DNA of 6,379 nucleotides from Clostridia bacterium (lineage in GTDB: Bacteria; Bacillota_A; Clostridia; Christensenellales; Aristaeellaceae): contig BNUH01000128.1 of the NCBI GenBank assembly GCA_025997215.1, positions 1 through 6,379 on the forward strand, in the 5' to 3' direction. How positions within the stretch are numbered: the first letter of the stretch is position 1; the number at the start of each line of letters is the position of its first letter. This document shows positions 202-6,379 of this stretch, one piece after another. Under the pieces are notes generated by a model. The model ran no database searches, had not been told where the DNA came from, and worked only from the letters and a program-made list of their open reading frames with translations. The position numbers and the translations under genes were made by a program.

Positions 202-240
202 CCTTAGAACTCCCTTGATTTGTCAAGGGAGTTCTAAAGG
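202..240. terminator. Perfect 15-bp inverted repeat between convergent genes, probable bidirectional terminator
   Basis: The arms TTAGAACTCCCTTGA (204-218) and its exact complement (223-237) enclose a 4-base TTTG loop. Two more G-C pairs follow beyond a single bulged A at 238. The hairpin starts 21 bases after the plus-strand stop at 180 and lies 6 bases beyond the minus-strand stop at 246, the usual place for a shared terminator of convergent genes. Neither side has a run of T, so it is not a textbook intrinsic terminator. It may act as a 3'-end-protecting hairpin instead. Confidence 0.55.
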
Positions 241-245
241 GTAGT

Positions 246-476
246 TCATACGTGTTGCTCCCGCAATCGCTTTATTTCGCTTATAGGAAGGTCGGTCAGA
301 TCGGCAATCAGATCATCAGGATCATTGCGTTTTATCAACTTTGTAGCCACTTTTATGGCTCTGCTGATATCGCCCTCAGTCCGGCCTCTTGCCCTGCCTC
401 TTGCCTCGCCTATCTCCAAGCCCTCTTCAAACCGAACTTCCCCGATTTCCTCCACCGTAATATCGGCAAATAACAC
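246..476 (-). CDS. Stand-alone copy of the Rpn C-terminal domain (RpnS-like antitoxin), 76 residues
   Basis: This small gene is a second copy of the last part of the nuclease gene just upstream. The protein starts GTG-LFADITVEEIG, passes through one GEAR and one GRAR unit, and ends ISEIKRLREQHV. Outside the repeat number and the last four residues it is identical in protein to residues 239-326 of the nuclease. It begins 15 bases after the nuclease stop codon and in the same frame. Its own ribosome site GGAGG (485-489) lies 8 bases before the GTG (474-476), so translation is probably coupled. In the Rpn family the separately translated C-terminal domain binds the full-length nuclease and blocks it, so I infer that this copy is an extra antitoxin. 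A decayed duplication is the alternative. The synonymous pattern of differences speaks against decay. Confidence 0.75.
   Translation of the reverse strand: MLFADITVEEIGEVRFEEGLEIGEARGRARGRTEGDISRAIKVATKLIKRNDPDDLIADLTDLPISEIKRLREQHV
388..411 (-). repeat. 12-base GEAR/GRAR repeats in the stand-alone copy (two units)
   Basis: There are two 12-base units on the plus strand, CTTGCCCTGCCT and CTTGCCTCGCCT, encoding GRAR and GEAR on the minus strand. They match the six-unit array in the nuclease gene, with one Glu replaced by Arg. Confidence 0.85.
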
Positions 477-484
477 GCTGCGTA

Positions 485-489
485 CCTCC
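485..489 (-). promoter_or_regulatory. Ribosome binding site of the stand-alone RpnS-like gene
   Basis: GGAGG lies 8 bases upstream of the GTG at 474-476 and 2 bases after the nuclease stop codon at 492-494. The same site, at the same spacing, lies inside the nuclease gene at 779-783. The duplication therefore carried its translation start with it. The GTG and this spacing decide the start of the 76-residue gene. Confidence 0.75.
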
Positions 490-491
490 GT

Positions 492-770
492 TTACGCATA
501 CAGCCCTCTTAAGCGCTTAATCTCGCTAATGGGGAGATCGGTCAGATCGGCTATCAGATCATCAGGATCGTTGCGTTTTATCAACTTTGTAGCCACTTTT
601 ATGGCTCTGCTGATATCGCCTTCAGTCCGGCCCCTTGCCTCACCTCTTGCCTCGCCTCTTGCCTCGCCCCTTGCCTCGCCCCTTGCCTCGCCTCTTGCCT
701 CGCCTATCTCCAAGCCCTCTTCAAACCGAACTTCCCCGATTTCCTCCACCGTAATATCAGCAAATAGCAC
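492..770 (-). CDS. Internal gene for the Rpn C-terminal domain (RpnS-type antitoxin), 92 residues, in frame within the nuclease gene
   Basis: Val239 of the nuclease is encoded by a GTG (768-770) that has a perfect GGAGG (779-783) eight bases upstream. Translation from it gives a 92-residue protein, LFADITVEEIG to KRLRGLYA, carrying all six GEAR repeats. Published work on Rpn proteins shows that their variable C-terminal domains with 4-residue repeats are made separately from internal starts and neutralise the full-length toxin. The match here in position, repeat type and start site is close. Conservation of the same start in the downstream duplicate supports its use. Expression itself is inferred. 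Confidence 0.65.
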   Translation of the reverse strand: MLFADITVEEIGEVRFEEGLEIGEARGEARGEARGEARGEARGEARGRTEGDISRAIKVATKLIKRNDPDDLIADLTDLPISEIKRLRGLYA

Positions 771-1484
771 GCTGCGCACCTCCGTTCCATGTGTCTTTAA
801 GAAGTCTGACATTATATTATGCCCAATGCAGTATTTTATAGCCGTCTCGACGGCTTTCGTTAAGTCTTTCCCTGTAGCTTTTGCCTCATTCACTTTGGCG
901 GTGAATAATGTATAGTCTTGAAGAGATTTACTCTTCGCTAATATCTCCGAATTTCTGCCAGCATTAATATTATAAACTGGAATCACCAATTCCAGCTGTG
1001 TATCCAATTCAGGATCGTCGATGACATCAGCGACTTTCTTGAAAGCATCCGAAAGCCTCAGTTTGGTAACATCCGGTTTCTCTTCTGCTCCGTTATAAAG
1101 GACAAAGCACCGGATCTTATCAATTTCCTGCAGCGTCGACTTGTAAAACGGCTTCGGATCATGATATATTCTCTTCAGAATCTCCACAATATAAAGTAAA
1201 ATTCTGAACGGCATGTTCGGATTCCACGTCGATTGGTGCTCGATCAGAATGATCAGCATGTTATCCAGCACAAAAGACACATCGTTGACCAGCCCATAGA
1301 ACAGCGCGTTGTCGATCGTGTTAACCTCAATAGGCGTATCCGCCGGGTATGCCACATTCGAAAACGCATTGTATATCTCAATCAAGCGTTGATTCGTCTC
1401 CGAAAAATAGGAGGCGAAAACGCTGCTCTTATACTGCCGATTCGCTTTTGAGCGGCCCTTAGACTTCACAACTTTCTTGGACAT
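492..1484 (-). CDS. Rpn-family recombination-promoting nuclease / YhgA-like putative transposase (full-length RpnL), 330 residues
   Basis: This is a PD-(D/E)XK-fold DNA nuclease of the Rpn family, long annotated as a putative transposase. Family members cut DNA, promote recombination and have been shown to be toxic anti-phage proteins. The core is visible as NDVSF (Asp68) followed by LIILIEHQST (Glu82-x-Gln84) and then MPFRILLY, the family hallmark. The N-terminal FASYFSETNQRLIEIYNAF is also family-like. Residues 239-330 form the C-terminal domain, with (GEAR)6 at 261-284 and a closing DLPISEIKRLRGLYA. I chose the ATG at 1484. It has AGGGAGGG nine bases upstream and an extended -10 promoter just before it. 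A longer reading from TTG at 1565 would run through that promoter. The gene looks more AT-rich than argS, which fits transfer. All catalytic residues are present, so it is probably active. Confidence 0.88.
   Translation of the reverse strand: MSKKVVKSKGRSKANRQYKSSVFASYFSETNQRLIEIYNAFSNVAYPADTPIEVNTIDNALFYGLVNDVSFVLDNMLIILIEHQSTWNPNMPFRILLYIVEILKRIYHDPKPFYKSTLQEIDKIRCFVLYNGAEEKPDVTKLRLSDAFKKVADVIDDPELDTQLELVIPVYNINAGRNSEILAKSKSLQDYTLFTAKVNEAKATGKDLTKAVETAIKYCIGHNIMSDFLKTHGTEVRSVLFADITVEEIGEVRFEEGLEIGEARGEARGEARGEARGEARGEARGRTEGDISRAIKVATKLIKRNDPDDLIADLTDLPISEIKRLRGLYA
634..705 (-). repeat. Six tandem 12-base repeats encoding (GEAR)6
   Basis: The plus-strand unit is CTTGCCTCGCCT with small variation, starting at 634, 646, 658, 670, 682 and 694. 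It reads as Gly-Glu-Ala-Arg on the minus strand with a mix of AGA and AGG codons. The unit length is a multiple of three, so gain or loss of units keeps the frame. The protein stretch should form a charged amphipathic helix. In Rpn antitoxin domains such a helix lies at the dimer interface and varies in repeat number among strains. Confidence 0.92.
779..783 (-). promoter_or_regulatory. Internal Shine-Dalgarno site for the RpnS-type product
   Basis: GGAGG inside the nuclease coding sequence (codons for Thr-Glu-Val) is placed 8 bases before the in-frame GTG at 768-770. It is as strong as the site before the full-length ATG and is preserved in the duplicate. Confidence 0.65.
811..816 (-). promoter_or_regulatory. 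Candidate internal -10 element upstream of the internal RpnS start
   Basis: A perfect TATAAT on the minus strand lies about 40 bases upstream of the internal GTG, so a transcript from it would carry a leader of roughly 35 bases including the internal ribosome site. The best -35 at a 17-base spacing, ATAAAA, matches only three of six bases. The element lies in AT-rich codons for Asn-Ile-Met, so it could be chance. Confidence 0.25.
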
Positions 1485-1509: not shown

Positions 1510-1538
1510 AGTATAGCAGAATCGCCCGATCTTATCAA
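1510..1538 (-). promoter_or_regulatory. Sigma-A type promoter of the Rpn locus with extended -10
   Basis: On the minus strand TTGATA (1533-1538) is separated by exactly 17 bases from TATACT (1510-1515). A TGC directly before the -10 makes it an extended -10. Each hexamer matches consensus at five of six positions. Transcription would start near 1503, about 19 bases before the ATG, leaving just room for the ribosome site. No other promoter of this quality is seen near the locus, so both the nuclease and the downstream copy are probably on this transcript. Confidence 0.75.
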
Positions 1539-4775: not shown

Positions 4776-5621
4776 TCAACCTCCCTGCACGATGATGCTG
4801 CGGAGTTTATGCCGCATGAGTATTCTGCCTAATGTAATAAATATGGTTATCCATATAAGCTGAACCAGAATGGTTATCCACGCCTCGGATGGCGGCGTTA
4901 CCCCTACGTATAATCGCAGCGGCAGCTCGACCAGCCCGGCGAAAGGCTGCAGCGCGAGGAAGCGTTGCAACGCGTCCGGCCACATGACCAGCGGCAGGTA
5001 CGATCCGGACAGTACTCCGCTGATCAGAAACATTATGTAAGTTGGACCTTCACCCCACGTGATCCCCATCCGCACCACGGTCGTCAGCATCGCGAACGCC
5101 GTGCTCAATGCAAATGCCGTCACGAGCGCGCACAGGAAAAGCGCGAATCCCGCCGCCGACGCCGGAGCATGCAACCCAAATGAGCCTGGCATGATCACAC
5201 CCGCGAGCATGGTTATCAGCGCACGCCACCAGATTCGGCCTAAATTGCCCGCGGCAATCTTGAAGAACCAGTGGACGTATAGATCCAGCGGTCTTACCAA
5301 TTCCACACCAATGTCGCCATTGGTAATTTTCGCCAATATTTCCGAATCCACCGACATTGGGATGACCGCCCAGATCATCTGGGTCAGCCAAATATAGGAT
5401 GCCATCTGCTCGAATGACATCGTGGCGTTGTCCCTCATGCCACCATACTTGTAGAATATAGAGTATACCGTCAACTCGATCAGCGCCCAGAATATGCTTA
5501 TGCTCGCGCTGGCCAGCGCCGCCACGCGGTACTGCAGCGACTCCGCCGTGCGCAGCAGGAACAGCGCGCCACAAGCCTTTATCGATCTGAATACAGTAGA
5601 ATTCGCGGCATTACTGGTCAT
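4776..5621 (-). CDS. ABC-2 type transporter permease (DUF990 / COG4587-like), 281 residues
   Basis: This is the partner membrane subunit of the exporter. The hallmark is [15 protein letters not shown] at 101-115, the counterpart of the GDFDRVMLRP motif in the second permease. Hydrophobic stretches around residues 33-57, 74-90, 130-148, 155-183, 194-214 and 248-266 suggest six membrane segments. The C-terminus is short and basic (RHKLRS). The ATG at 5619-5621 lies inside the ATPase gene, with an 11-base overlap in another frame. AAGGAG (5632-5637) is ten bases upstream. The order ATPase, permease, permease with overlapping ends is the standard arrangement of this system. The gene is intact. 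The transported compound cannot be read from the sequence. Confidence 0.87.
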
Positions 5622-6264
5622 TCAGATCCAACTCCTTGTACATGGCCGCCGTGATCTCATCGATATCCTGCCCGGCATACGACGCGAACCGTTCGCGCAC
5701 CGCCGCCAGTTCACCATCAAACAATAACCTTCCGTGTCCTATAACCATTACACGCTTGCACAACGCCTCCACATCATCCATGTCGTGGGTGGTCAGCATG
5801 ATGGTCACGCCCGTCTGACGGTTTTCCTCCTTCAGGAATGCGCGTAAGGCCAGCTTGGACACGGCGTCCAGACCGATCGTCGGTTCATCCAGGAAGAGTA
5901 TGCGCGGACTGTGCAGCAGTGACGCGGCCAATTCGCAGCGCATGCGCTGGCCCAGCGACAGTTGGCGCACGGGGGTTTTGAGCAGACTGCCGATGTCCAG
6001 CGCGTCGGTGAGCGCATTCAAGCGGCGCTCGTACTGTTCGCCGGGTATATCATATATCTTTCTTAATAATCTAAATGAATCCATAACAGGTACATCCCAC
6101 CACAACTGACTGCGCTGGCCGAACACCACGCCGATTTGCTGCACATGCTCGGTCCGGTCAAGCCAAGGCGTTCGCCCCATAATCCGACACGAACCGCCAT
6201 CCGGCGTGAGTATGCCGCTCATCACCTTGACCGCGGTGGATTTGCCAGCGCCGTTCAACCCCAA
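5611..6264 (-). CDS. ABC transporter ATPase (COG4586-like), N-terminus missing and C-terminal region shortened
   Basis: This is the ATP-hydrolysing subunit of the exporter. In the 217 visible residues are Walker [10 protein letters not shown] (2-10), the family-typical [17 protein letters not shown] (44-60) containing the Q-loop Gln50, signature LSLGQ (103-106 with the preceding residue), Walker [14 protein letters not shown] (121-133) and the H-loop His160 in LTTHDMDD. Two things are wrong. The roughly 50 residues normally before Walker A, with the A-loop, are absent: the frame continues only about 14 codons upstream, to a TAG near 6306, through sequence unlike the family. The region after [13 protein letters not shown] passes directly to [14 protein letters not shown], so about 50-60 residues usual in the family appear missing. 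The TTG at 6264 is only the first possible start codon, not a credible one. It is either a disrupted gene or an assembly chimera near the contig end. Confidence 0.82.
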
Positions 6265-6379
6265 GCTCTGGTAAAATGCGCATCTGGTATAGCAAACGGT
6301 CTACACTGTCGCGCGTGAACCGCTTACCATCTTTGCACACCACTACCTGCGCCTTACCATTCCTCAGATCGCTGACCAT
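6265..6379 (-). other. Fragment of an unidentified reading frame abutting the truncated ATPase
   Basis: The minus strand from the right edge reads MVSDLRNGKAQVVVCKDGKR followed by [18 protein letters not shown], in a frame different from the ATPase. It continues out of frame into ATPase sequence before stopping near 6158. The first 38 residues look like real protein but do not resemble the start of an ABC ATPase and I do not recognise the family. The ATG at the very edge may be internal, since the frame could extend beyond the window. I infer a junction at about 6262-6270 joining two unrelated sequences. Confidence 0.35.

Follow-up and report, generated by a model that had tools for sequence, protein, structure and literature searches.

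The window, that is, the whole stretch of DNA analysed (6379 bases), comes from a bacterium, probably a clostridium of the gut, and carries on its minus strand an Rpn-type nuclease gene (492–1484, ATG start, 330 aa), the product of which is the presumed toxin RpnL. An earlier start of this ORF, the TTG codon at 1565, is also possible. The 3′ part of the nuclease gene contains a second gene in the manner of a gene-within-gene, which encodes an RpnS-like antitoxin domain (492–770, minus strand; GTG at 768–770, 92 aa including six 4-residue repeats), and its ribosome-binding site lies inside the nuclease coding sequence (771–785, minus strand) and matches that of the free gene described below. 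The variable 4-residue (GEAR) repeats are encoded by a 12-nt tandem array of 6.3 copies (630–705, minus strand). Past the nuclease stop codon (492–494), a 15-nt spacer with a further ribosome-binding site (477–491, minus strand) leads to a free-standing RpnS-like gene on the same strand (246–476, GTG at 474–476, 76 aa), which has two repeats and the tail EQHV. The initial annotation had reported the antitoxin-like domain twice, from the internal GTG 770 and as the free gene at 246–476, with the same GGAGG-8-GTG start and a different repeat number; coordinates and content proved correct, the common start was seen in the alignment of the copies, and the repeat numbers are two and six.

Upstream of the nuclease ATG, a promoter-like site with 10 of 12 consensus matches was found at 1510–1538 (minus strand), which has to be regarded as weak since five such sites were found against 2.6 expected in shuffles. 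Just 3′ of the free gene, between it and a plus-strand ORF entering from position 1, a 17-bp hairpin (202–239, minus strand; also delimited as 196–245) may form the end of the transcript. The fold of the 181–250 segment reached −29.9 kcal/mol (z −6.8), a value as low as which was obtained in none of 200 shuffles. The hairpin has no T run and is absent from the list of the terminator scan.

The nuclease matched the family model PF04754 with 25 bits (cut-off 21), and 24 of 26 relatives gave a match to the same model (E up to 0.01). The TIGR01784 score was 33.1 bits, below the cut-off of 52.1, and the homologues carry the name Rpn family. Matched by motif position, D68, E82, and Q84 are the counterparts of RpnA D63, E82, and Q84, PD-(D/E)XK residues that were mutated in RpnA (PMC5350276). 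These three columns are kept in 71, 72, and 72 of the 72 aligned ORFs, respectively. The phenotypes of RpnA are abolished by D11A (PMC5350276). The position of D11 is occupied by S20 in the window nuclease, and the column consists of D in 49, A in 9, S in 6, and N in 5 ORFs with a gap in 3. Because of the serine in place of D11, the window nuclease may not be an active toxin, and a sub-group of the Rpn ORFs may be inactive or rely on a different residue. A Foldseek search with the whole nuclease model found nothing within an E limit of 0.001. The PDB sequence search with the nuclease returned a single match, located within the repeat region (E 0.0095), and that with the free copy returned none; the PADLOC and plasmid tblastn searches were likewise without match.

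The internal start of the antitoxin domain was followed through the family. A Shine–Dalgarno match of at least 5 nt was present at the homologous internal site in 71 of the 72 distinct ORFs, the window included, and the common form of the site was GCG GAG GTG preceding ATG. When the synonymous codons were redrawn 1000 times at each gene's own frequencies, the mean was 47.2 ORFs and the maximum 56. The internal start is supported by codon evidence in the family of the nuclease, and the initial reading of the gene as an Rpn-type nuclease with an internal-start antitoxin-like domain is supported. Published cases of such a start comprise E. coli genes and a single gene of C. difficile (PMC10327210), and the codon evidence extends the claim to the relatives of the window nuclease. 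The C-terminal domain fits RpnA-S and its fold, and the number of repeats in its first helix is variable, in the window (six vs. two) as in all pairs compared. RpnA, RpnB, and RpnP2 similarly produce a C-terminal antitoxin with 4-residue repeats in the first helix from an internal start; as far as they are described, their antitoxin is encoded solely within the toxin gene, unlike that of the window.

The homology of the free copy to the nuclease gene starts directly after the nuclease stop codon, at the ribosome-binding site. Both GTG starts are preceded by ACGGAGGTRCGCAGC, in which GGAGG is followed by 8 nt and the GTG, and the start-site reading ACGGAGGTRCGCAGCGTG is common to the free and internal copies. 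Two repeat pairs make up the duplication, 265–423/511–669 (159 nt, 88%) and 370–492/664–786 (123 nt, 90%), and the free copy corresponds to the last 92 codons of the nuclease minus 16 codons, that is, four 4-residue repeats. The 3′-end of the gene is thus duplicated with matching start sites, an intact frame, and almost no amino-acid change in the core. This state would have arisen when the 3′ portion of the nuclease gene was copied in tandem, with a breakpoint very close to the internal ribosome-binding site. As a whole, we favor the explanation that the window holds an Rpn gene-within-gene toxin–antitoxin locus with a second, free RpnS gene, which we hold to be rather probable. The last four residues, all of which differ (EQHV in the free copy, GLYA in the nuclease), count against it. 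The EQHV tail resembles the tails of other relatives, for example LREQYA in P0008, and GLYA is also the tail of the nearest relative, P0001 of Clostridia bacterium AGMMS49992 (90%). The nearest relative with available DNA, L001 (68%), has no free copy. A search of 5.8 billion proteins with the free copy found only itself, which is little informative as just five candidates shared words with it.

The two copies differ at 26 nt, and synonymous and non-synonymous differences were counted between them pairwise. Among core codons 2–72, 16 differ and 15 of these only synonymously, the one exception lying in the repeat; the pN/pS of the pair is 0.09. Random substitution equivalent to these 18 base changes altered 12.2 residues on average and gave one or none in 0 of 20,000 trials, and when an unconstrained copy received only half of the changes, at most one amino-acid change was obtained in 0.025% of the trials. 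The free copy looks strongly constrained at the protein level and appears to be kept by selection, although the recent arrival of a fragment from another full-length allele would be able to leave the same synonymous-only mark. Taken jointly, and judged from the sequence, it is very probable that translation of the free gene takes place and yields a small helical protein of the RpnS type, and that selection maintains the gene. Across the compared pairs, pN/pS ranged from 0.06 to 2.36 (L013), with 0.83 and 0.64 at L080, so the constraint is not uniform across free copies. L013 reverses the pattern of the window pair, with 23 non-synonymous against 3 synonymous changes between the nuclease and its free copy; the excess may partly come from repeat misalignment, and the tail differs too. 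Since differences between alleles would likewise be mostly synonymous, and the contig is short (6379 bases), an assembly artefact or a chimera of two strain alleles had to be considered. The exact identity at the junction, however, is only 9 nt (AACGGAGGT), a brief stretch for the assembler to misjoin on, junctions of this type exist in complete E. coli chromosomes, and the layout is present at 18 other surveyed loci, which makes such an origin extremely improbable.

Relatives of the locus were surveyed for Rpn genes followed on the same strand by a homologue of their own C-terminus. In the family to which the host of L001 belongs, 50 of 300 genomes had a match. The loci examined were 30 from this match table, 40 further places chosen from it, and those from two other searches; many of the match-table rows outside the survey were partial or weak, and six ORFs with <300 nt downstream were left out. 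A copy of the own C-terminus on the same strand within 600 nt downstream was found for 19 of 66 Rpn ORFs, the window included (19 of 67 if L003 is counted). Within the window and its relatives, the nuclease tail was found in the 600 nt upstream in 0 of 65 cases and never on the opposite strand downstream. In the shuffled control, where each tail was compared with the downstream stretch of another locus, 9 and 11 of 66 matched, and all 9 matches of the rerun fell on loci having a free copy of their own.

The comparison of starts and repeats drew on 16 loci with a total of 19 intact free ORFs. This set is without L072, which has no homologous start codon, L045, where only a 22-residue remnant of the free copy was matched, and L048, which gave no comparison row, probably because its ORF runs to the end of the contig without meeting a stop codon. 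GGAGG lies ahead of the start in 13 of the 19 free copies and GAGG in L025 and L017, while no GAGG precedes the free start of L065, L039, and both copies of L080, the starts of the latter being only nearly homologous. At L015, L044, and L080, two successive free copies with different repeat numbers stand behind one nuclease. No free copy was seen at 30 loci from 30 genomes of the spirochaete phylum of L002 (and G002), many genomes of which have at least 15 Rpn matches. The labels "clostridial-type" and "spirochaete" rest on one member each, L001 and L002. Free antitoxin copies behind Rpn toxins are therefore not confined to E. coli but common in the clostridial-type group (19 of 66).

The layout had been thought undescribed in the initial annotation; this does not hold, as second rpnS copies were published downstream of E. 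coli rpnE (ypaA, whose protein product was demonstrated by tagging) and, in certain strains, of rpnC, together with losses of such copies by deletion or fusion (Zhong et al., 2023, PMC10327210). Among the papers listed, no later publication on free rpnS copies was evident from titles and abstract openings. With its intact same-strand downstream copy that has its own start, the window is a locus of the already known rpnE–ypaA layout, and its phylum is probably not that of the published examples. In both, the free C-terminal copy lies directly downstream on the same strand, the homology begins at the ribosome-binding site just past the stop codon, the stop-to-start distance is similar (12 nt in K-12 rpnE–ypaA, 15 nt in the window), and the copies differ in repeat number and tail. 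They are distinguished by the bacterial group, the duplication in the window being independent, by the repeat count of the free copy (one more than the internal one in K-12 ypaA, four fewer in the window), and by the RefSeq label of E. coli RpnE as inactive. The rpnE-type layout is present in complete E. coli chromosomes, and a K-12 junction query was covered to at least 80% in 3,099 of 5,426 E. coli genomes. At rpnC, a downstream small gene with an RpnS-type end and a different repeat make-up (5 pairs) also resembles the window; its spacer of 68 nt is longer, the start region of the free copy is dissimilar to the internal one, and the repeats differ both in motif and in number.

In RefSeq, the free copy at rpnE is labelled either incomplete or a pseudogene, both in K-12 and in all 10 two-copy records (L011 8317–8502, L081–L090). 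These labels, and the 22-residue remainder at L045, are what could be expected if the free copy were a decaying remnant of a duplicated rpn gene. Such a reading is already disfavored and seems to us quite improbable, because 15 of the 16 core changes are synonymous, 19 free ORFs are intact at 16 loci, and the YpaA protein was detected (PMC10327210).

In every pair compared, the two copies were out of step. The free and internal repeat numbers were unequal in all 19 clostridial-type free copies, the gap amounting to 1–8 units, with more repeats in some free copies and fewer in others. They were likewise unequal in 11 of 11 two-copy rpnE loci of E. coli (9 distinct pairs), where the front part was common to both copies and the tail differed each time, and the repeat region of rpnC was unequal in 5 of 5 pairs. 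Altogether, repeat number or length was equal in 0 of 35 pairs (19 + 11 + 5). For rpnE, 30 evenly spread rows were listed out of 5,371 records, and 10 two-copy and 5 single-copy ones were read in addition to K-12; of the remaining rows, 7 equalled K-12 and 8 had a single place. For rpnC, 40 of 5,374 records were listed, 7 fetched, and 5 compared as pairs, the count being without L100, which is frameshifted, and L103, which is interrupted by an IS. Short-read drafts may collapse copies of equal length, to which the E. coli chromosomes are less open. The mismatch was not found stated in the main text of PMC10327210, though it may be visible in its SI.

A surplus or deficit of a single repeat left RpnC-S unable to counteract RpnC-L (PMC10327210), a rule that comes from RpnC only. 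If it were general, none of these free copies would neutralize its neighbor, and given the mismatch the free protein is probably not simply additive on the adjacent nuclease. The tuning of toxin inhibition suggested by the initial annotation is accordingly doubtful, as a one-repeat mismatch was inactive in RpnC and the window pair is off by four. The same applies to a plain second dose, in which the free gene would supply additional antitoxin to inhibit the nuclease encoded upstream of it, without relying on the internal start. Its operon position, its own ribosome-binding site, and a core protein unchanged apart from one repeat residue would suit this role, but with the four-repeat difference in the window and 0 of 35 pairs matching in repeat number or length we consider it rather unlikely.

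The free copy could also be a store for recombination, chiefly a source from which a different repeat number or tail is transferred to the toxin gene when the two copies recombine, or else a by-product of such exchange. The 5′ part of the window copies is almost identical and the differences are concentrated toward the 3′-end, a crowding that suggests exchange between the two. In E. coli, the common front and differing tail in 11 of 11 pairs, the free-type tail carried by 4 of the 5 single-copy strains compared, and the reported losses by deletion or fusion (PMC10327210) point in the same direction. A mere donor, however, would need neither a ribosome-binding site nor a conserved start, yet GGAGG is kept in 13 of 19 free copies, and ypaA is translated (PMC10327210); we regard this role as unlikely.

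Since the copies are mismatched, yet ypaA is made and the window copy looks conserved, an antitoxin for another or earlier allele is favored. That the free protein fits Rpn proteins of other repeat number, for example an earlier state of the locus or a sister-strain allele, and does not simply reinforce the internal antitoxin, appears plausible to us, though short of probable. More tentatively, free rpnS genes in general might be out-of-register antitoxins against toxins with other repeat numbers (earlier states of the locus or sister-strain alleles), or partners in mixed dimers. Sister-strain alleles would arrive by gene transfer and be neutralized by the stranded free copy; alternatively, the free protein and the matched antitoxin would dimerize with each other. 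Two E. coli free copies are equal to the internal copy of single-copy strains or differ from it by 1–2 residues, and for the other 9 of the 11, none of the internal copies compared, from the 5 single-copy and the other two-copy alleles, had the same length. The out-of-register reading is a proposal and not a demonstration, since independent variation of the two copies predicts nearly the same zero count (0.7 matches expected among the 11 rpnE pairs, 0 observed). If it is true, it would hold for the window, the 18 other clostridial-type copies, and the E. coli rpnE and rpnC loci, and an Rpn locus would preserve a modest record of former alleles, comparable to orphan immunity genes. In polymorphic toxin systems such as CDI, orphan immunity genes are immunity copies adjoining a toxin that they may have ceased to fit. 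In contrast to these, the antitoxin of the window shares its sequence with the end of the toxin, and the toxin is not known to be exported. With 0 of 35 pairs in step with their own toxin, the use of the free copies, which was left open in published work, becomes directly testable.

Beyond the rpn genes, the 1647–2147 region encodes a 166-residue protein with a sub-threshold match (22.9 bits, cut-off 27) to Cass2, an integron-associated effector binding protein, and is followed by argS and two ABC-2-type permease genes. At the contig end, an ABC transporter ATPase gene is apparently split (5611–6379): the ORF at 5611–6264 begins about the Walker A motif, and the ORF at 6158–6379 lies in a different frame, which may reflect a frameshift or a sequencing error.
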